In this document: piece after piece, positions 19,519 to 32,870 of the stretch
How positions within the stretch are numbered: position 1 is the first letter of the stretch
Layout of the letters: each line of letters begins with the position of its first letter
From: an uncultured Dongia sp.
GTDB taxonomy: Bacteria > Pseudomonadota > Alphaproteobacteria > Dongiales > Dongiaceae
Assembly (NCBI RefSeq): GCF_936916975.1
Contig: NZ_CAKZGO010000004.1
Location: 62,001 to 126,000 of the forward strand
DNA length: 64,000 nucleotides
Direction of reading: 5' to 3'
The notes under the pieces: model-generated
Told to the model about the DNA's origin: nothing
Seen by the model: the letters and a program-made list of their open reading frames with translations, nothing else
Databases searched by the model: none
Translations under genes and position numbers: made by a program

Positions 19519-19529
19519 GGAAGGTATTC

Positions 19530-19580
19530 CGTGGTGATTTGGCCGGCCGGCTTGCAGCCACGTAAAAAAACTTGCTAAAG
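19530..19580 (+). ncRNA. SAM-II riboswitch in the metA leader
   Basis: SAM-II (the alphaproteobacterial 'metA' motif) senses S-adenosylmethionine and lowers translation of methionine genes. P1 is formed by CGTGGT (19530-19535) and GCCACG (19557-19562). The conserved loop starts GATTTGG and ends CTTGCA. After P1 comes an A-rich joint and the conserved pseudoknot strand GCTAAAGGG (19573-19581). All hallmark blocks are in the right order. metA starts 81 bases downstream, so the switch lies entirely in its leader. Confidence 0.93.
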
Positions 19581-19661
19581 GGCCGCCCGGGATTTTCGAG
19601 ACTGGAATCTCAAGGCAGCGGACCCAAGGCGAGTCATTTGCCGACTTTTGGGTGACCGCAC

Positions 19662-23604: not shown

Positions 23605-25032
23605 TTGGCAATCGCCCCTAACTCGCCCAGCGCCTCGCCCGAGAAACGAACCGAGACAAGCCGCGATGGCGATTCGCGCTTCCAGCGCGTGGTGGAAGCA
23701 TCGCCCAGTGCCATGGTCATGATCAACAGTGCCGGGCGCATCGAGATGGTCAATTTGCAGGCAGAGCGCGTCTTCGGCTATGCCCGCCTCGAGATGGTCG
23801 GCCAGCCGGTCGAGATGCTCCTGCCGCAGCGCTTTCGCGGCCATCATCCGGGCCTGCGCCACGCCTATTTCGCCGAACCGCAATCGCGCCCCATGGGTAT
23901 CGGGCGCGATCTCTTCGGCATGCGCAAGGACGGGCGCGAATTTCCGATCGAGATCGGCCTCAACCCGATCGAGACCGAAGAGGGGATGATGGTGCTCTCG
24001 GCCATCGTCGACATTTCCGAACGCAAGCATCTCGAAGAACGCTTCCGCCGCGTGGTCGAAGCTGCCCCCAACGCCATGGTTATGGTCAACAGCAGCGGCC
24101 GCATCGAGATGGTAAACGCCCAGGCGGAACGTGTCTTCGGCTACGCCCGCGCCGAGCTGCTGGGCCAGCCGGTCGAAATGCTGGTCCCCGACCGGTTCCG
24201 CGGTCATCATCCGGGCCTCCGCCAATCCTTTCACCAGGAACCCGATGCCCGGCCCATGGGAGCCGGCCGCGACCTCTTTGCACGGCGCAAGGATGGCAGC
24301 GAGTTTCCCGTGGAGATCGGTCTCAACCCCATCGAAACCGAAGACGGCACGATGATCCTCTCGGCCATCGTCGACATCTCCGACCGCAAGCAGAAGGAAC
24401 GCAGCATCGAACAGGCGCTGCAGGAAAAGGATGTGCTGCTCGGCGAAATCCACCACCGGGTGAAGAACAACCTGCAGATCGTCCACAGCCTCCTCGACCT
24501 GCAATCCGGGCAGGTCAGCGATCCGGCGGCGCTCGCCATGCTGCGCGACAGTCAGAACCGCATCCGCTCAATGGCGCTCATCCACCAGACGCTCTACCAG
24601 TCGAAGGACTTCGCCAGGGTGGATTTCGGCAACTTCCTCGACTCCTTCGCGCCGATCCTGGTCTCGTCCTATGCCGTCAATTTGAACGATGTGGCGCTGA
24701 ACATCGACGCCGAGGGCATGTCGCTGCCGATCAACTGCGCCATTCCCTGCGGGCTGATCGTCAACGAATTGATTTCAAACGCCCTCAAGCACGCTTTCCC
24801 CGACAAGGCTGGCGGCAGCATCCGCGTCGAACTGCGCCAGGATGGCGCCGACCACTTCCTGCTGGCGGTCAGCGACGATGGCGTCGGCCTGCCGCCGGGC
24901 CTCCACATTGAGACGGCATCCACCCTCGGGCTGCAATTGGTGACCTTGCTTACCGACCAGTTGCGCGGCAAGCTGGCGATCGAGACCATGAAGCCGACCC
25001 GGTTTGCCATCAGATTTCCAGTTCCGGCATGA
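23605..25032 (+). CDS. two-PAS sensor histidine kinase, HisKA_2/HWE type
   Basis: This 475-residue cytoplasmic kinase has two successive PAS domains (about residues 25-143 and 147-265). A HisKA_2 dimerisation domain follows, with the phospho-acceptor in GEIHHRVKNNLQIV (His283/His284). The C-terminal ATPase domain has NELISNALKHAF (N box) and DDGVGLPPG (G box). There is no membrane segment. The PAS domains are about 77% identical to each other, a recent internal duplication. Start: TTG at 23605, with AGGAG about ten bases upstream; the first ATG lies inside PAS 1. The response-regulator hybrid kinase gene begins 10 bases downstream and is probably its partner. Confidence 0.85.
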   Translation: MAIAPNSPSASPEKRTETSRDGDSRFQRVVEASPSAMVMINSAGRIEMVNLQAERVFGYARLEMVGQPVEMLLPQRFRGHHPGLRHAYFAEPQSRPMGIGRDLFGMRKDGREFPIEIGLNPIETEEGMMVLSAIVDISERKHLEERFRRVVEAAPNAMVMVNSSGRIEMVNAQAERVFGYARAELLGQPVEMLVPDRFRGHHPGLRQSFHQEPDARPMGAGRDLFARRKDGSEFPVEIGLNPIETEDGTMILSAIVDISDRKQKERSIEQALQEKDVLLGEIHHRVKNNLQIVHSLLDLQSGQVSDPAALAMLRDSQNRIRSMALIHQTLYQSKDFARVDFGNFLDSFAPILVSSYAVNLNDVALNIDAEGMSLPINCAIPCGLIVNELISNALKHAFPDKAGGSIRVELRQDGADHFLLAVSDDGVGLPPGLHIETASTLGLQLVTLLTDQLRGKLAIETMKPTRFAIRFPVPA

Positions 25033-25042
25033 CGAGGCGCCC

Positions 25043-27361
25043 ATGAATGCACCAACGGTCATGGTGGTGGAAGACGAACGGATCGTGGCGCTCAATCTGT
25101 GCCGCACGCTGACCAGGCTCGGCTACAACGCATCGACCATCATTTCCAACGGCATCGACGCCCTGCGGCATATCGCGGAGACGAGGCCCGATATCGTCCT
25201 CATGGACATCCATATCGACGGCGACATGGACGGGATCGAAACGGCGGCGCGCATTCCCGAGAACCTGATGCTGCCGGTCATCTATCTCACCGCCTATTCG
25301 GAAGACGCGACGCTCGACCGGGCGCGCACCACAAAGCCTTATGGCTATCTGGTGAAACCGTTTTCGGAACGCGAGTTGCACGCCACCATCACCATGGCGC
25401 TGCAACGGCGCGTCAGCGACGTCGCCGTGCGTGAGAGTGAGGAACGTTTGCGCCTGGCGCTGGCGGCGGCCGAACTCGGTTCCTGGGAGGTCGACCCCGA
25501 TACGGGGCAGATTCTGTGCAAGGACCATGAAGGCTGGTTGTCGGATGCGACACCGCGGCTGGTGGCCGAAAGCTTTCGTGAGTTCCTGCCCACGGTTCAC
25601 AGGGCCGACCAGGATCTGGTCCGCGCCGCCTTCAATCAGGTCAGCACGCAGAGCGAACTCTGCGAGGTCGAGTTCCGCAAGCCAGCCGCCGACGGCAGCG
25701 AGCGCTGGTTCCGCGTCATCGGCAAGACCTTTGCCAGCGACACCGACCGGCGGCGGCGCCTGCTGGGCGTCGTGCGCGATATAACGGCCCTGAAGCAAAA
25801 GGATCAGGAGCAGCGCGCCTCGGAACAGAGCTACCGCGCGCTCATTTCCAGCATCGACGGTATCGTCTGGGAAGCAGATCCCAGCCGCAACAGGATCACC
25901 TATGTCAGCGACAGTGCTGAGCGCGTGCTCGGCTATTCGCCCGAGCAATGGATGACGGAACCCCTGTTCTGGGAGCGGCGCCTCCACCGGGACGATGCCG
26001 CACAGGCGATCGCCGAATATACCGTGGCCATCGCCGCCGGACAGTCCTACGCGTCGACCTATCGCATGATCGACAGCAAGGGTGACATCGTCTGGATGCA
26101 CGAAGTCGTATCGGCCATATTGCGGGACGGTCTGCCCGTTTTGATGCGCGGCGTCATCATCGACATCACCGACCTCAAAAAAGCCGAGACCGAGATCGCA
26201 TTGGCATCGCAACGCCTCGCTGAAAGCGAACAGCGGCTAGCCGCCATTCTCGATACGGCGGCGATCGGCATCGTCACGGTCGACGAGAAGTTTCGCATCA
26301 TTTCCTTCAACCGCGAGGCCGAGAACATTTTCGGCTACACGGCCGAAGCGACGATCGGTAAAACGCTCGAGCATCTGCTGCCGGACTCGTTCCGCGACCG
26401 GCACCAAGAGCAGATGCGAGGATTCCTGCGGGGCGATGGGAAAAGCCGGGCGATGGGCAGCTGGCGCACGGTGACGGGCTTGGCCGCCGATGGCCGCATC
26501 ATTCCGCTGGCCACGATCATCTCCCAGGTATCGGTAGGTGGCCGAACAACTCTAACGGCGATCATGCGCGACATGACCGAAACCCAGAAGAGCGAGGCGG
26601 AACTGCGCCGCCTGCTCAACGACCGAGAAATCGCGGTCGCCACCGCCGAAGCCGCCAACATGGCAAAATCGAGTTTCCTCGCGGTGATGAGCCACGAACT
26701 GCGTACGCCGCTCAACGCCATCATCGGCTTCTCCGAGCTGATGGGCCAGGAAGTCATGGGTCCGATCGGCAATGAACACTACCGCCAATACATCGCTGAT
26801 ATCCATCAAAGCGGCCAATTGCTGCTGACCCATGTCAACAGCATCCTCGACCTGTCGCGCATCGAATCCGGCCGGCATGAACTCAACCTCGTCGGACTGG
26901 GCTTTGCGGATGTCTGGGATCAGGTCGCCGGCACATTGACCGTCAACGCGCTCACCAAGGGCGTCGCCTTGCAGCTGGAAGATATCAACAGCGATGTGAG
27001 GTTCCGTGGCGATCGCAATGCGGTGGCACAGGTCCTCCTTAATCTTGTCTCCAACGCCATCAAATTCACGCCGGCCGGAGGAAAGATCGACATCGGCCTG
27101 GCGAATACGGGCCGCGACAAAGAGGTTGCGATCTTCGTCCGCGACAACGGCCGCGGCATTCCCGCCGACCGATTGACCGATGTGCTGAAGCCGTTTGTGC
27201 AGGTGTCTGACACCTATGCCCGCGATACCGGCGGTGTGGGGTTGGGTCTCGCCATCTGCAAATCACTGGTCGAGGCCATGTCCGGCCGTATCGCGATCGA
27301 CAGCACCCTTGGCCAGGGCACCACGGTAAGGGTCTTCCTGCCGCGCTGGACGGATTCCTAG
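25043..27361 (+). CDS. hybrid kinase: receiver, three PAS domains, HisKA and ATPase
   Basis: This 772-residue signalling protein starts with a receiver domain (about residues 5-120) whose phospho-acceptor is Asp55 in DIVLMDIHIDG and whose Lys is in YGYLVKPFSE. Three PAS/PAC units follow (about 128-245, 255-380 and 395-520). HisKA follows with His551 in VMSHELRTPLNA. HATPase_c has LLNLVSNAIKFTPAGG and DNGRGIPADRL. The receiver is at the N-terminus, the reverse of usual hybrid kinases. ATG at 25043 is chosen over an upstream GTG-like start at 25004, which overlaps the previous gene. The preceding HWE kinase may phosphorylate this receiver (inference). Confidence 0.87.
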   Translation: MNAPTVMVVEDERIVALNLCRTLTRLGYNASTIISNGIDALRHIAETRPDIVLMDIHIDGDMDGIETAARIPENLMLPVIYLTAYSEDATLDRARTTKPYGYLVKPFSERELHATITMALQRRVSDVAVRESEERLRLALAAAELGSWEVDPDTGQILCKDHEGWLSDATPRLVAESFREFLPTVHRADQDLVRAAFNQVSTQSELCEVEFRKPAADGSERWFRVIGKTFASDTDRRRRLLGVVRDITALKQKDQEQRASEQSYRALISSIDGIVWEADPSRNRITYVSDSAERVLGYSPEQWMTEPLFWERRLHRDDAAQAIAEYTVAIAAGQSYASTYRMIDSKGDIVWMHEVVSAILRDGLPVLMRGVIIDITDLKKAETEIALASQRLAESEQRLAAILDTAAIGIVTVDEKFRIISFNREAENIFGYTAEATIGKTLEHLLPDSFRDRHQEQMRGFLRGDGKSRAMGSWRTVTGLAADGRIIPLATIISQVSVGGRTTLTAIMRDMTETQKSEAELRRLLNDREIAVATAEAANMAKSSFLAVMSHELRTPLNAIIGFSELMGQEVMGPIGNEHYRQYIADIHQSGQLLLTHVNSILDLSRIESGRHELNLVGLGFADVWDQVAGTLTVNALTKGVALQLEDINSDVRFRGDRNAVAQVLLNLVSNAIKFTPAGGKIDIGLANTGRDKEVAIFVRDNGRGIPADRLTDVLKPFVQVSDTYARDTGGVGLGLAICKSLVEAMSGRIAIDSTLGQGTTVRVFLPRWTDS

Positions 27362-28690
27362 CTAGTGCTCCGACCGGGCCCGCCGCAATTCATGCGACAG
27401 GCGGATTTTTGCAGCGAGTGTGAAAAGAGGCCCGCTCGGCACCCATTTGGGCTTTTCCTGCGCCAGCGCATTGGCAATGAGGGGCGAGCTGCCGCCGCTG
27501 GCATGTTCCGCCATCAATTTGCCGAGCAACGTCCCGCGCGCGACTCCGGCGCCATTATAGCATCCGGCCGCGAACAGGCCGGGCGACAACGCCTCGAACA
27601 CGAAGCGCCCGTTGCGGCTGGCGCACATATGGCCTGACCAGGTGTATTGGATGGCGTCCGACCCTAAGAACGGGAAGCGATTCTTCAGGCCCATCTCGTG
27701 CCAGGCACGGCGCTTTGCCAGCATGTCCGCACTGATGCCGGCCGGCTCGTATTCCGCCGTGTTGCGCATGAGGATGCGGCGGTCGGCGGTCAGGCGCACC
27801 GTGGCACCGCCTTCGATCGGGCACAGCATGCCCCAGGGCGCCGCTCGCCCGATCTGCTGTTCCTCATCCTCCGTCAGCGGCCGCGTGAGGCTGGCGGTGA
27901 GCGAGATCGGGAAAACCTGGTTCCGCTTCAATCCCAACCGCGGCATGAACGCATTGAGGCCGACGATGACATGGGCGGCACTGATGCTGCCATCCCGCAG
28001 GGTGACCACGGCGCCGCCACCCGGTCGCACCGTCACCTTCACTGCGTCGGTGTTCTCATAGATTTCGATCTGGGAGGGCAGCGTGTCGATCAATCCCTTG
28101 GCAAAGCGCGCCGGCTGCAGCAGGGCATTGCCCGCCCCGATCCACAGGCCATGGCGATAGAAGGAAATCCCCAGCCGCGCCTTCAGCGCCGCCTCCTCCA
28201 GCAACTCCGCCTCGCCGCCGACATCGACGATATCGCGCAGGATTGCCGCGCGCCGGGCAAATTTATTCGCCTCACGCACGGCAAAGATATAGCCCTTGGC
28301 CTCGTAATCGCAATCGATCGCCAGCTCGCCAACCAGCCGCTTCACTTCCGCCCCGGCAGCCCGGTGGATGTCCCATTGCGCCTGATAGTCGGCGCGCTTT
28401 GCGAGGGTGCCAAGGCCACCGCGCGGCATTTCCATCGACACGCTGAAGCCAGAATTGCGGCCGCTCGCCCCCTGCCCCAATTGCCGGCGATCAATCAGCA
28501 TGATCCGCGCATCGCTATGGAGCTCGGCCAATCGCCGTGCCGCGGCCAGGCCGGTGAAGCCACCGCCGATCACCAGCCAATCGGTCTTGTGCTCGCCCGA
28601 GAGCTTGGGAAACGCGCGGTACTCGCCGGCAAGTGCCACCCAGCCACTGCGATCTGTCACCTTGGTCCGCGTCGTGTCAGTTTGGCCCAT
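27362..28690 (-). CDS. FAD-dependent oxidoreductase of the DAO family (gamma-glutamylputrescine oxidase-like)
   Basis: This 442-residue flavoenzyme has a Rossmann motif in DWLVIGGGFTGLAAARRLAEL. The following GASGRNSGFSVSME is characteristic of gamma-glutamylputrescine oxidase PuuB and related amine-oxidising DAO proteins. The C-terminal FAD motif is FAAGCYNGAGVARGTLLGKLMAE. It oxidises a secondary or primary amine with O2; the physiological amine is unproven. No other puu gene is next to it. ATG at 28690 is selected: GGTGGGGG lies seven bases upstream and this leaves 14 bases to the preceding gene. It may share a transcript with the VWA genes upstream, but no functional link is evident. Confidence 0.85.
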   Translation of the reverse strand: MGQTDTTRTKVTDRSGWVALAGEYRAFPKLSGEHKTDWLVIGGGFTGLAAARRLAELHSDARIMLIDRRQLGQGASGRNSGFSVSMEMPRGGLGTLAKRADYQAQWDIHRAAGAEVKRLVGELAIDCDYEAKGYIFAVREANKFARRAAILRDIVDVGGEAELLEEAALKARLGISFYRHGLWIGAGNALLQPARFAKGLIDTLPSQIEIYENTDAVKVTVRPGGGAVVTLRDGSISAAHVIVGLNAFMPRLGLKRNQVFPISLTASLTRPLTEDEEQQIGRAAPWGMLCPIEGGATVRLTADRRILMRNTAEYEPAGISADMLAKRRAWHEMGLKNRFPFLGSDAIQYTWSGHMCASRNGRFVFEALSPGLFAAGCYNGAGVARGTLLGKLMAEHASGGSSPLIANALAQEKPKWVPSGPLFTLAAKIRLSHELRRARSEH

Positions 28691-28704
28691 GTCACTGCCC
28701 CCAC

Positions 28705-29109
28705 CTATCTCAGGGTCAGGACTTCCCAACCCGCCGGCACCTTGGGTGCTGCTGCCGTGGTGACATAGACGATCCGCTCGGCGTTGGCGAGGTCCGCGGC
28801 CTGCGCGACCTTGGCAAGACGCCCATCATCGCGCGGCGCATAGGGGGTGACGCGGCTGAAATTGAGCTGGTCGCTCCAGCCGTGGACCGGCCCCTTATCG
28901 GTAAAAGCCGCATATTCGGTGTAGCGTGCCTCATCCAGCGTATCGATGGCGACCTTCGCCCGGTCCCAGCTCGCCGCCATCGGATAGGAGGAATCGAGGA
29001 CCACCGCCACCCGGTGCGGTGCCTCGGTCAGGCGCAGATGCGTTGCCCCCGCCGCCCCGCCCCAGGCGAGAGCGGCCACCACCAGCCAGATCGAAAACAG
29101 CTTGCCCAT
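28705..29109 (-). CDS. small secreted VWA-like protein of unknown function
   Basis: This 134-residue protein has a signal peptide (MGKLFSIWLVVAALAWGGAAG) and then a compact domain. The segment HRVAVVLDSSYPMAASWDRAK looks like the first strand and MIDAS loop of a von Willebrand A domain. In place of DxSxS it has Asp-Ser-Ser-Tyr-Pro, and the expected later metal ligands are not obvious. The chosen ATG is 6 bases after GAGG; a GTG at 29121 would overlap the preceding stop. It is the last gene in the TelA/VWA cluster. It may be a reduced accessory to the full VWA lipoprotein. Function unknown. Confidence 0.7.
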   Translation of the reverse strand: MGKLFSIWLVVAALAWGGAAGATHLRLTEAPHRVAVVLDSSYPMAASWDRAKVAIDTLDEARYTEYAAFTDKGPVHGWSDQLNFSRVTPYAPRDDGRLAKVAQAADLANAERIVYVTTAAAPKVPAGWEVLTLR

Positions 29110-29117
29110 TTGTGACC

Positions 29118-30836
29118 TCACATCTGCGAGTTGAGCATGGCACTGATCTTATAGGCGACATCGTCGACACCCGCCTTGATGCTCGCCGCTTCAACGAGAT
29201 TGGAAACCTGACCCAGCACCTTGAGGTCCGCCTCGAAGCCGATGGTATGGACCGGAATGCGCATGCCGCGCACGATCGGCGCCAGATCGTCAAAGACATG
29301 ACCTTCATTCGTCTCGCCATCGGTGAGCACGAACAGCATCGGCTTGGCGTTGGGGTCCTTCTTCAGCTCCTCCTCCAGCACCCGGAGCGAGACCGCGATG
29401 CCGTCGAACATGGCCGTGCCGCCACCCACCGACATCTCGTCAACGGCTTTCAGGAACCGCGCCTTCTGCAGGAAGGTGAACGGCGCCGGCTCCAGCACCG
29501 TGCGCACATCGCTCGAGAACACGACGAGGCCGATCGAGTTCTTGGGCGAGATCGCGGTGACGCCGGCTTCCAGCGCCGCCTTCAGATTGGTGATGCGCGG
29601 ACCTTCCATTGAGCCGGACAGATCCGCCAGGAACACGGCGACGATGCGCTTGCCGGCATCCTTCTTCTGCTTCCAGATCTTCTGCGCCTCAATCAGCGTC
29701 TGCCCGGACGGCACCGGGAAGGCCGAGGCCCAGGGCTCGCCCTCCTCGAATCCGTATGACTGCGCCAGCTTCTGCATCTCCGAGCCCGCCGCAAACCCGG
29801 CAAAGGCCTCCATGGTCTCGATCTGCGCCGGCGTCGCACTCTCCAGCGCATAAAGCGGGTTGTCATGGCGCACGCCGAACGGCACGAAGCGATAGCCCGA
29901 TTTCAGGCTGTCCGTGTTGACGAAGGTCTGCCGCTCCATGACGAAGGTATCGAGGCTGCCGTCATTGGCGACCGAATCGCGCATCTGCATGGTGGTCTGT
30001 GCGATGAAGGGGATGTTCTTCTGGAACGCCTCAAGTGCTGCCGTCACGTCAGGCGACAACAGTTTGGCCTCGTTCTTGTTGGCGAACTGCTCCAGCACCG
30101 AGACCAGGAAGTTGAGGCCGGTCGAGGAGGCAAACGGGTCGGTATAGCCGGCCACCGCCTTGCCCTGCACCACATCGTCGACGACTTCGGCAATGCCGAC
30201 GCTGCCGCGCTCATCCTCAATGCGCTTGGCCATGTCTTCCTTCATGACGATGCCGGCGGTGTTGCCGACCAGGCGCGGGCTGATCAATTGCGTCTTCACG
30301 CCGCGCGCTTCCGCCATGCGCACCCACAACTCGTTGGATGGCGTGAAGCCAGCGGGCTTCCCCTGCCCCCAGGCAATGAGGTCATAGGCTGTACCCGAAG
30401 CAATCGAGCGCAAGGCGATCCTGGCCGTGCTGCCGTCAGACAGGCGATGGTTGCTGGCGTTGAACTTGGTCACCGCCTCGACCATCCAGCCATCGGTGCC
30501 CTTGCCGGACTTTTCGGTCGAGGCAAAGATCTCTGTCACCGTGGCGCCACTGACAACCCCCGGATCAACGGTCAGCGGAAAGCTGTCGACCGGCGGCAGC
30601 TTGGGCGCCGTCTCGGCCGGCGCTGTGGCGACGGCTTCCGCCGATCCGACCGGTTCGGCGCGCGACTGCACATCCTTCAGCAGCTTGGTGAGCCGGCTGG
30701 AAGCTTCCTCACGGCTGATCACCTTGGGGCCGCTCTGCGCCGTATCGCCCTTCTGCTCCTCGCAGGCAGCGGTCAGCAGCAACACACCGGCCAGGGCCGT
30801 CATCAATCCCGTCTTCAGGCTGACGAAAGATCGCAT
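29118..30836 (-). CDS. lipoprotein with substrate-binding and von Willebrand A domains
   Basis: This 572-residue envelope protein has a lipobox (LLTAAC, modified Cys25). A periplasmic binding-protein-like region (about 60-370) follows. A full VWA domain (about 395-570) has MIDAS DLSGSM (Asp405, Ser407, Ser409), a GGGTAMFDG loop and a third metal site near LTDGETNEG. Binding-protein/VWA proteins are often encoded with TelA or ter-type stress genes. It lies 59 bases after telA on the same strand. ATG at 30836 follows GAGGAG by ten bases. The alternative TTG at 30854 lies within that ribosome site. The ligand and partner are unknown. Confidence 0.88.
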   Translation of the reverse strand: MRSFVSLKTGLMTALAGVLLLTAACEEQKGDTAQSGPKVISREEASSRLTKLLKDVQSRAEPVGSAEAVATAPAETAPKLPPVDSFPLTVDPGVVSGATVTEIFASTEKSGKGTDGWMVEAVTKFNASNHRLSDGSTARIALRSIASGTAYDLIAWGQGKPAGFTPSNELWVRMAEARGVKTQLISPRLVGNTAGIVMKEDMAKRIEDERGSVGIAEVVDDVVQGKAVAGYTDPFASSTGLNFLVSVLEQFANKNEAKLLSPDVTAALEAFQKNIPFIAQTTMQMRDSVANDGSLDTFVMERQTFVNTDSLKSGYRFVPFGVRHDNPLYALESATPAQIETMEAFAGFAAGSEMQKLAQSYGFEEGEPWASAFPVPSGQTLIEAQKIWKQKKDAGKRIVAVFLADLSGSMEGPRITNLKAALEAGVTAISPKNSIGLVVFSSDVRTVLEPAPFTFLQKARFLKAVDEMSVGGGTAMFDGIAVSLRVLEEELKKDPNAKPMLFVLTDGETNEGHVFDDLAPIVRGMRIPVHTIGFEADLKVLGQVSNLVEAASIKAGVDDVAYKISAMLNSQM

Positions 30837-30895
30837 CTTACGCGCACTCCTCAAAAATCAGGCTCCAGGAATCAGATGGGCTACCAAAGAAGAAT

Positions 30896-31999
30896 TTAGT
30901 TCTGCTCAACCGTGGGCGCCGCGGCGCGCCCTTTCTCGAGCCGCTTGATCGCCTCTTCGCCGACATCAGCCAGGCGATCGAAGGCCAGGATCTGCTCTGC
31001 CATTTTTGGCAGCGCATTGCGGCGATAATTTGACACATCCTCGATCGCCGCGAAGATGTCGCGGAAGGCACCTTCCAGCGCCTTGATGTCGAGGCTGGCA
31101 TTGGATGCCTGCTTCTGGATGGCGGCACCCTGCGTCTTCAACCGTTCCGCCGTGCCGGCGATGATGTCCGAGGTGGTCTTGTTGAGCGCATCGATCTTGG
31201 TCAGCGCGATCTTCTGGTTGGCCAGCGCCAACGCAACCGTCACACCGACCTCCAACGCCCGTACCGTCACGTTGACCGCCCGATCGACACCGCTGATCAG
31301 CTCCTTGTTGTTCTCGATGATGACGTCGAGCGCCATCACCCCCTGCTGGTTGACCGCCATCTGCTGGCCAAGATCGAGCTGCCGCTGGCGCAGCTTGAAC
31401 AGCAGCTGTTCCTCGATGAAGCGCTTCTGGGCTTCATCGGCACCGCTGGTCTTGGCAACCAGCGCCTCATCCAAGGCCTTGGCGAAGACCAAACGCTTGT
31501 CGATCACCTTGGTGGCGCGGCGCATGTCATCGCGGTCATCGGCGATGGTGATGTTGTCGCGCTTCAGCTGATCCTGGCTCGACTTCAGCGAATTGACGAC
31601 AGCGTCAATCACCGTCTGCGCGCTTTCGAACTGGGTGAAATAGCGCTTGATCGGCGAGCCCACCAGCGGCAGCAGGCCCAGCGTGCGGCTCAGCCAGCCG
31701 GCCTCGAAATCGAATTTCGCCGGATCCAGCGCCTCGACCTGCTCCTTCAACTGCACCAGCCCTTTGGCGACCGGCCCGCCATCATCGGCGGCGGCAGCCA
31801 GGCTCTTGATCGGCTGGCGCAGCATGGCGCTCCGCCGCGTCGCCTCTTCCTGTGCGTCGCGGCCAAGGCTTTCGATCTCGACCACCACGCTGGGATCGCT
31901 GGACAGCGCCGCCAGTTGGTCGGCAGCATTGCGCGCCAGCGCCGTCACATCGGCGCTATCGCTGTCGAGGGCGGCATTCGCGGGCAGCGTATTGGTCAT
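30896..31999 (-). CDS. telA: TelA-family toxic-anion (tellurite) resistance protein
   Basis: This 367-residue cytoplasmic, largely helical protein belongs to the TelA (PF05816) family. Recognised segments are GWLSRTLGLLPLVGSPIKRYFTQ, split over the family's first conserved block, and the glutamine-rich QRQLDLGQQMAVNQQGVMALDVI. A coiled-coil C-terminal half ends in GRAAAPTVEQN. TelA proteins confer tellurite and colicin or antibiotic tolerance in several bacteria through an undefined envelope function. The ribosome site AGGAC precedes the ATG. It lies between a two-helix coiled-coil membrane protein and the VWA lipoprotein, the same order in transcription. Confidence 0.9.
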   Translation of the reverse strand: MTNTLPANAALDSDSADVTALARNAADQLAALSSDPSVVVEIESLGRDAQEEATRRSAMLRQPIKSLAAAADDGGPVAKGLVQLKEQVEALDPAKFDFEAGWLSRTLGLLPLVGSPIKRYFTQFESAQTVIDAVVNSLKSSQDQLKRDNITIADDRDDMRRATKVIDKRLVFAKALDEALVAKTSGADEAQKRFIEEQLLFKLRQRQLDLGQQMAVNQQGVMALDVIIENNKELISGVDRAVNVTVRALEVGVTVALALANQKIALTKIDALNKTTSDIIAGTAERLKTQGAAIQKQASNASLDIKALEGAFRDIFAAIEDVSNYRRNALPKMAEQILAFDRLADVGEEAIKRLEKGRAAAPTVEQN

Positions 32000-32126
32000 G
32001 TCCTGTCCCCTTATCGGCAGATGGTTTGTCGGCAGGCGGTCTTCGGCCAGGCTGAAATCAGTCGGGCGATTTCCAGGCAGTCGGTTTGTCGGCGTGACAT
32101 CAAAAACGGTTCACGCCAGCCTTGGT

Positions 32127-32870
32127 TCACGTCAAACGCGCAGCATAGCGCCCGGTGCGGGCAGCCAATGCCTCCAATTCCTTGATCGTCGTCGCCGCAT
32201 CCGGCCCGGAACTCGTCTTGGTCGAGGCCAGCGCCGAGGATGCGCGGTCGAGCACCGTGAGCGCTGCCTCGTTGGTGGCGAGCAGCTTGCCCAGACGCGC
32301 CTGCTGCTCGCGGCCGAGGTCGAGCCGTTCGGTCAGCGCCTTGATCTCATCGGCCGCATTGGTATCGTGCTGTAATTCCTTCAGCCGCTTCTCGGCATAG
32401 GGTGCATCCAGCCTGCTCGCCGCGCGCAAGGTGATGGCGCATTCGCGCAACCCATCGACCGCGGCCAGAAAGACCTGCTCGGCCAGGCCCAGATAGCGGC
32501 CATAGGTCACCTCGCCCTCATCCATGCGATGTTTCAGCACCTCGGCCAGCACGTCATGCTTTTCCTGCAGCGCCTTCAATTGCGCCACACCCTGCGTGGC
32601 ACCGAGCTTGGTCAACTGTTCGGCCAGCTCGTCGAGATCGCCTGCGGCATCCGCCGTGACGGCGAGGCTGAGATTGACGCGGAACGCATCAGAGCGCGCC
32701 AGCATCACCAGCCACAACAGGAACAGCACAGCGCCCAGCGCCGCCGCGACGGCAATGCGCTCCACATCCTGGCCGAACCAATAGAGGAATCCGGCGGCGG
32801 CGGCGACGGACAGGGCCAAGGCGACAAACGTCAACGGATGAGTCGCTGCAGCCTGCAATGGTCTCGACAT
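32127..32870 (-). CDS. two-TM coiled-coil membrane protein linked to TelA
   Basis: This 247-residue protein has two N-terminal membrane helices (about residues 11-31 and 38-58). A long cytoplasmic helical domain (about 70-245) follows with heptad-like repeats such as DLDELAEQLTKLGA and EIKALTERLDLGREQQARLGKLL. No catalytic motif is visible and I do not recognise the family. It opens the TelA/VWA cluster, 127 bases upstream of telA, and could tether TelA to the inner membrane. That is inference from topology and position. The start follows GAGGGGCG by one base pair of spacing; another start is not obvious. Confidence 0.7.
   Translation of the reverse strand: MSRPLQAAATHPLTFVALALSVAAAAGFLYWFGQDVERIAVAAALGAVLFLLWLVMLARSDAFRVNLSLAVTADAAGDLDELAEQLTKLGATQGVAQLKALQEKHDVLAEVLKHRMDEGEVTYGRYLGLAEQVFLAAVDGLRECAITLRAASRLDAPYAEKRLKELQHDTNAADEIKALTERLDLGREQQARLGKLLATNEAALTVLDRASSALASTKTSSGPDAATTIKELEALAARTGRYAARLT

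Follow-up and report, generated by a model that had tools for sequence, protein, structure and literature searches.

A TelA gene cluster of an uncultured Dongia as a candidate trans-envelope stress- and ligand-sensing module

What does TelA do, and can the genes that accompany it tell us? The role of this protein has long been unclear, and recurrent partners with a ligand-binding domain on the outside make its function directly testable. We approach the question through a stretch of 64,000 nucleotides from an uncultured Dongia sp. (the window; contig NZ_CAKZGO010000004.1, positions 62,001 to 126,000), whose list of open reading frames (ORFs) contains four consecutive genes on the minus strand, a row already recognized in the initial annotation and present at the positions given there. 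Among them are a TelA gene and a gene for a substrate-binding protein (SBP) joined to a von Willebrand A (VWA) domain. Read along their strand, they are:

32127..32870, minus strand: 2TM protein, 247 amino acids, with two N-terminal hydrophobic segments and no family over cut-off
30896..31999, minus strand: TelA (PF05816), 367 amino acids
29118..30854, minus strand: SBP-VWA protein, 578 amino acids from a TTG start, with SBP_bac_11 and VWA domains, a predicted lipoprotein
28705..29121, minus strand: small secreted or membrane-anchored protein, 138 amino acids, with an N-terminal hydrophobic segment and a D-x-S-Y ... W motif

We give a probability of roughly 0.5 to the reading that these four genes form one trans-envelope module for sensing stress and ligands, with TelA inside. 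The gene content, the domains, an intact metal ion-dependent adhesion site (MIDAS) motif and a linkage conserved in several arrangements can be read directly from the sequences. By that linkage, the trans-envelope arrangement proposed in the initial annotation is retained here as a putative unit in which TelA stands at the centre, with partners in the membrane and outside.

By sequence, the TelA protein is certainly a member of PF05816 (E 2e-64, 218 bits against a gathering cut-off of 30, model positions 15-329 of 332), and it is the sole TelA found in its genome. The AlphaFold2 model consists mostly of long helices (mean pLDDT 68.6), and the protein is presumably cytoplasmic. The SBP-VWA protein carries an SBP_bac_11 domain at residues 119-370 (E 1.3e-10) and a VWA domain at residues 407-543 (E 2.5e-14), both over their Pfam cut-offs, which upholds the two-domain part of its first description. 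Its lipoprotein character is plausible: by eye, the N-terminus reads LLLTAAC, a plausible lipobox, and in homologues from the family relative G015 and from Bacillota a hydrophobic N-terminal anchor takes its place. An alternative ATG start lies at about position 30836. A MIDAS consists of D-x-S-x-S plus a downstream T and D, and the motif is complete here (D411, S413, S415, T480 and D512). These residues are invariant in all 16 aligned SBP-VWA proteins (those of the window, G015 and 14 of the 28 Bacillota loci described below), as are many residues of the SBP domain. The VWA domain is predicted to be extracytoplasmic.

The 2TM protein had been called a membrane coiled-coil protein. Hydropathy places two hydrophobic segments at residues 13-31 and 39-57, in agreement with the membrane part of that name; the domain that follows is probably coiled-coil-like, helical and cytoplasmic, and the protein has no family match over cut-off in Pfam or NCBIfam. 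In profile searches, its homologues adjoin TelA or SBP-VWA in Bacillota and in other loci, and the Bacillota set aligns with the set from the other groups at an hhalign probability of 98.6% (E 1.2e-15), both sets having been collected with joint profiles. The identity of the 2TM protein with XpaC was rejected, as there is no PF10112 match and hhalign gives probabilities of 1.6 and 4.1% against XpaC profiles.

The linkage itself was followed through 49 distant loci collected by a contig scan with TelA, over whose ORFs iterated profiles were run; because they were found with peptides of the window TelA, they are biased to its relatives. All 28 Bacillota loci (from Paenibacillus and others) hold the same three families in the order 2TM, fused SBP-VWA, TelA, and their aligned members are 32-43% (SBP-VWA) and 37-42% (TelA) identical to those of the window. 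They differ from the window in that SBP-VWA precedes TelA, in the hydrophobic anchor that stands for the lipobox, and in that no small D-x-S-Y gene was found. One of them (L053, 3353-5834, Paenibacillus sp. D2_2) has its 2TM and SBP-VWA genes in ORF pieces and its TelA gene whole, through sequencing errors or decay; it is counted as having both genes and was excluded from the Bacillota 2TM profile. In three Clostridia-type loci (L064, L066, L068), an extra binding lipoprotein directly follows TelA, recognized as SBP_bac_8 in L066 and by eye in the other two.

Outside the Bacillota, a split arrangement prevails, in which an SBP-OmpA gene, a VWA lipoprotein gene, a second SBP-OmpA gene, a 2TM gene and TelA follow one another. 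It occurs in 15 of the 21 loci, or 15 of the 17 with enough upstream sequence, since in four (L028, L031, L037, L071) the contig begins too close to TelA for the upstream genes to be assessed. Its hosts include Thermodesulfobacteriota, Nitrospirota, beta- and gammaproteobacteria, one Sungbacteria genome and others. A third SBP gene follows TelA in 10 of the 15 loci, and 10 of the 15 have a permease gene. In the examples whose domains were read (one or two loci, L024 and L027), NMT1/SsuA-like binding domains with a C-terminal OmpA domain occur together with an ATPase, a permease and a VWA lipoprotein. At an hhalign probability of 98.2%, this lipoprotein is matched to the VWA part of the SBP-VWA fusion; some lineages have VWA joined to the SBP, and others have it as a gene of its own that lies between two SBP genes. 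Two Bdellovibrionales loci (L032, L034) have neither SBP nor VWA, and the second has an SPFH gene upstream instead. On the Sungbacteria contig (L039, 11244-13031), a second SBP-VWA-profile match lies some 4 kb beyond TelA, in the same orientation.

Closer to the window, G015 (locus L103) has the 2TM, TelA, SBP-VWA and small-protein genes in the same order, between flanks that by eye differ from those of the window; EamA-, CorB- and AroB-like genes were recognized in G015, likewise by eye. In the wider phylum, TelA matches lie at 77 places in 75 genomes, and from 39 of these genomes we chose a sample of 40 regions, usually one for each genus. The TelA profile re-found the gene in 37 of the 40 and missed it in L121-L123, and divergent partners may likewise be missed. 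Four regions from two families of the same class (L115-L118, families f42 and f66) have the order TelA, SBP-VWA, XpaC, SBP, and two from other classes (L130, L133) have SBP, TelA and SBP-VWA, followed by what appears by eye to be a short protein with hydrophobic segments. One region (L124) shows a split arrangement with ATP-binding cassette (ABC) genes, and another (L125) a further VWA match on the strand opposite to TelA. A window-type 2TM protein was found in 5 of the 40 regions. In family f13, TelA stands without an SBP-VWA or XpaC profile match in all nine regions (L105-L113), and in at least two of these (L107, L110) it is followed by a short protein with hydrophobic segments, as judged by eye.

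Plasmids offer further variants among the 6 of 14 TelA-bearing records that we examined. Vibrio alfacsensis plasmid pSEA2 (L156, 142-8917) holds a complete split set of TelA, 2TM, VWA, SBP-OmpA and ABC genes; it is typed as mobilizable, and five more Vibrio plasmid records carry TelA and 2TM homologues. Records from Sphaerotilus and Nonomuraea, the latter a giant record filed as a plasmid, have the order SBP, TelA, SBP-VWA. Around the plasmid TelA genes of Arthrobacter, Curtobacterium and Methanosphaera, neither annotation nor profiles show an SBP-VWA gene. A quick tree was built from 87 TelA proteins, and the tool flags long branches in it (the window's included) as well as possible false joins. 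A long, supported split divides this tree, with SBP/VWA-linked proteins in both parts, and the pair of window and G015 has a support of only 82. The link is therefore either old or has arisen more than once. SBP, VWA and 2TM accompany TelA in several phyla and in various gene orders, which speaks for a functional connection rather than a local accident. This SBP/VWA link is a recurrent variant of the TelA neighbourhood, not its universal context; it is widespread, yet holds a minority share of the sampled TelA loci.

We infer a topology, a physical complex, ligand and metal binding, and an output for the module as follows. The SBP-VWA protein, anchored in the membrane on the outside, would bind a small ligand through its SBP domain, and its MIDAS would bind a divalent metal and thereby make contact with another protein, for which the 2TM protein and the small D-x-S-Y protein are candidates. 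The 2TM protein would relay the state of SBP-VWA across the inner membrane to its own cytoplasmic coiled coil. This coiled coil would recruit or organize TelA into a submembrane scaffold, and the scaffold may alter membrane properties or envelope-stress tolerance. By analogy with a TelA relative in Listeria, the output may be tolerance to membrane-acting or oxyanion compounds. According to passages of a 2026 paper (PMC12791056, citing another paper), a mutant disrupted in lmo1967, the TelA gene, is fourfold more susceptible to nisin and twofold more susceptible to tellurite; the same passages treat lmo1966-lmo1967 as an XpaC-TelA pair and describe the mechanism of Listeria TelA as still not known.

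The fourth gene had been described as encoding a second VWA-like protein, and here our results do not bear the initial annotation out. The 138-amino-acid protein has no match in Pfam, NCBIfam, PHROGs or PADLOC, and hhalign gives probabilities of 1.6 and 0.7% against VWA-protein profiles. Its single-sequence AlphaFold2 model (mean pLDDT 62.8, pTM 0.53) finds no match with E <= 0.001 in a Foldseek search of the PDB. The segment VAVVLDSSYPM looks like the beginning of a VWA domain. In the VIA comparison of the model, 23 of 50 rows, counted by reading titles and ranges, are VWA or I domains that cover most of the domain; their Z of 4.1-4.9 is equalled by D-Ala ligases and other folds. The window copy and that of G015 (42% identical) both read D43-x-S45-x-P47; because a proline replaces the third serine, the protein does not have a MIDAS as defined above. 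From the model comparison, a degenerate VWA-like fold is possible.

The same protein may have counterparts far from the window. Four cyanobacterial plasmid records (Pseudanabaena, Stanieria) contain SBP-VWA proteins 31-34% identical to that of the window, and in all three that were examined a small protein of 113-125 amino acids, with D-x-S-[YF] and then W, lies directly behind, as it does in the window. In reciprocal profile searches against a background of 4944 ORFs, which includes copies of the window and G015 genes, most of the counterparts were the best non-self matches, with weak E-values. The cyanobacterial profile matches G015 at E 0.07 and the window at 0.78, and the window/G015 profile matches P0001 at 0.033 and P0003 at 0.16, with P0002 (6.3) ranking below several background ORFs; profile-profile comparison gives a probability of 39%. 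A typed motif expression proved too strict (2 of 5 small proteins, 1 of the 4944 background ORFs), and hidden Markov model ranks were used instead. By these sequence comparisons, the window and cyanobacterial proteins likely belong to one small family tied to SBP-VWA. Among 398 phylum genomes, a sample evidently without G015, the protein was found in one, its own. Near the cyanobacterial pairs (L148-L150) there are SPFH or prohibitin genes in two of the three records and a CHAT or caspase gene in two.

A number of observations weigh against the reading of the four genes as one module. Neighbourhood conservation, which the initial annotation had named as a check, is found in distant bacteria and in G015, but in the family itself the cluster occurs in just one of 77 relatives besides its own genome. 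Of 78 genomes searched (the own genome included), 18 have an SBP-VWA match; the match is full-length in the own genome and in G015 (same family, 57% identity), and in the other 16 it concerns the VWA part. An alignment search at E <= 1e-30 in 289 genomes of the class, again evidently without G015, found SBP-VWA in the own genome only. These sparse matches in the family, class and phylum samples indicate that the four-gene version is rare. Of the 40 sampled phylum regions, 7 have SBP and VWA in one run with TelA on the same strand, as do 3 of the 6 plasmid records, so that TelA can occur without the two. Conversely, the three cyanobacterial plasmids carry SBP-VWA and the small D-x-S-[YF] protein, with no TelA detected.

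Within the cluster, the ORF coordinates leave 127 bases between 2TM and TelA, so that a separate promoter is possible, and 41 or 59 bases between TelA and SBP-VWA, depending on the start codon; the SBP-VWA gene shares 4 bases with the small gene. One terminator-like site, of a kind that occurs at near-chance numbers, lies on the minus strand at 30844-30832, between TelA and SBP-VWA. A promoter scan found none, against a mean of 1.2 in shuffled sequences. The fold search with the TelA model also gave no match with E <= 0.001. Designed bundles and long-helix proteins, including helical pore-forming proteins, rank highest in it, as would be expected from a coiled coil alone; the TelA sequence reaches a best E of 0.16 against the PDB.

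Among the alternatives, we consider it unlikely that the cluster is related to uptake, with TelA and the 2TM protein as accessories of an ABC importer and the window as a reduced version that has kept the binding protein and lost the permease and ATPase. Most of the split loci place a permease and an ATPase after TelA and share binding-protein domains with NitT/TauT/SsuA-type importers (TIGR03427, SsuA family); besides a third binding protein and a permease in 10 of 15 loci each, the third binding protein of L027 passes the TIGR03427 cut-off for a putative urea ABC transporter binding protein (499 versus 334 bits), and the whole split set travels with ABC genes on the Vibrio plasmid. The window, in contrast, has a binding domain of the SBP_bac_11 type fused to VWA, and neither the four genes nor six neighbours (by ORFs and Pfam) include a permease or ATPase. 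The permease profile matches none of the 28 Bacillota loci and nothing in the G015 region, all 11 matches being non-Bacillota, and ATPase-profile matches occur in just 4 of the 28 (L041, L047, L054, L063), that of L041 just upstream of the 2TM gene. The own genome has three partial SBP-OmpA matches (27-36% identity), none of them full-length. To our knowledge, ordinary importers do not include VWA, OmpA or TelA components.

We also doubt that the cluster is a classic XpaC-TelA or Ter-type module against chemical stress, to which SBP-VWA is an incidental extracytoplasmic add-on. The literature already describes pairs of TelA with XpaC, and Ter systems in which TelA is accompanied by a VWA protein. 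The former (Listeria lmo1966-lmo1967, Bacillus YaaN, the XpaC-TelA-SPFH loci of family f23) likewise set a membrane-anchored protein beside TelA and have a presumed envelope-stress role, as in the putative window module, and XpaC lies in the TelA run in 17 of the 40 phylum regions. As for the latter (TerB, TerC, TerD and TerF with TelA), the plasmid TelA of Curtobacterium adjoins TerD genes, and a jumbo-phage review, in the passages available, names TelA and the VWA protein TerF as Ter-system components that form sub-membrane structures (PMC7824862, citing Anantharaman et al. 2012). However, the window 2TM protein has no detectable similarity to the XpaC profile, and an outside SBP-VWA partner is added; no PF10112 match was found anywhere in the own genome, nor any TerD match. 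The three TerC homologues are on contigs C3, C19 and C22, not on the window's C4, and a Ter system was rejected as there is no TerD in the genome and TerC is not beside TelA. The VWA domain here forms one protein with an SBP, and its predicted place is outside the cytoplasm; the pairing recurs in unrelated gene orders. Our search of the open full-text literature yielded no paper that joins TelA to SBP-VWA or an ABC set; Anantharaman et al. 2012 may contain this link.

VWA domains often mediate metal-dependent protein contacts, and the initial annotation had placed two metal-dependent adhesion modules outside the cell. The many I-domain chains in the comparison of the small-protein model would suit an adhesion complex. 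A full MIDAS is present in one of the two proteins, the small one being without the third serine, and nothing found points to adhesion: no adhesin family appears in the Pfam results of the cluster and its neighbours, and the SBP half, together with the related ABC-transporter clusters, indicates ligand sensing or uptake instead. We regard an adhesion complex as very improbable. That the genes are neighbours by chance, as their rarity in the family and class might suggest, was rejected, because G015 keeps the four-gene unit between other flanks and profiles find homologous sets in distant phyla.

If the four genes do form a sensing module with TelA inside, a broader and more tentative reading can be offered. 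TelA may serve as the cytoplasmic base of a trans-envelope machine that is widespread and gated by a ligand: an SBP and a MIDAS-bearing VWA domain, fused or split, would sense an outside compound, and TelA, driven through a 2TM coupler, would remodel the membrane or protect it. As parts of the same tentative picture, some diderms might add peptidoglycan-binding OmpA domains and an ABC transporter, and the window might represent a minimal four-gene version that adds a new small D-x-S-Y family.

The G+C content of the cluster genes (0.63-0.66) is near that of the window (0.628), so that there is no compositional sign of recent transfer. A phage origin was rejected, since PHROGs relates TelA to a tellurite-resistance family at 2.9e-6 and gives the other three proteins 0.008 or worse; a search of viral contigs with the SBP-VWA alignment returned just three partial matches (28-47% identity). 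A named defence system was rejected as well, as no PADLOC model matches any of the four proteins. Close downstream on the same strand lies a flavin adenine dinucleotide (FAD) oxidoreductase gene (27362-28729), which we left out of the cluster because, by eye, no such gene lies behind the G015 cluster. Two adjacent PAS-domain histidine kinase genes (23605-27361, plus strand) end head-on against it, the second with an N-terminal receiver domain (Pfam). Farther away on the plus strand, at 19521-19598, the window contains an S-adenosylmethionine (SAM) riboswitch of the alphaproteobacterial type (SAM_alpha, Rfam RF00521, 74.9 bits), in keeping with an alphaproteobacterial host.

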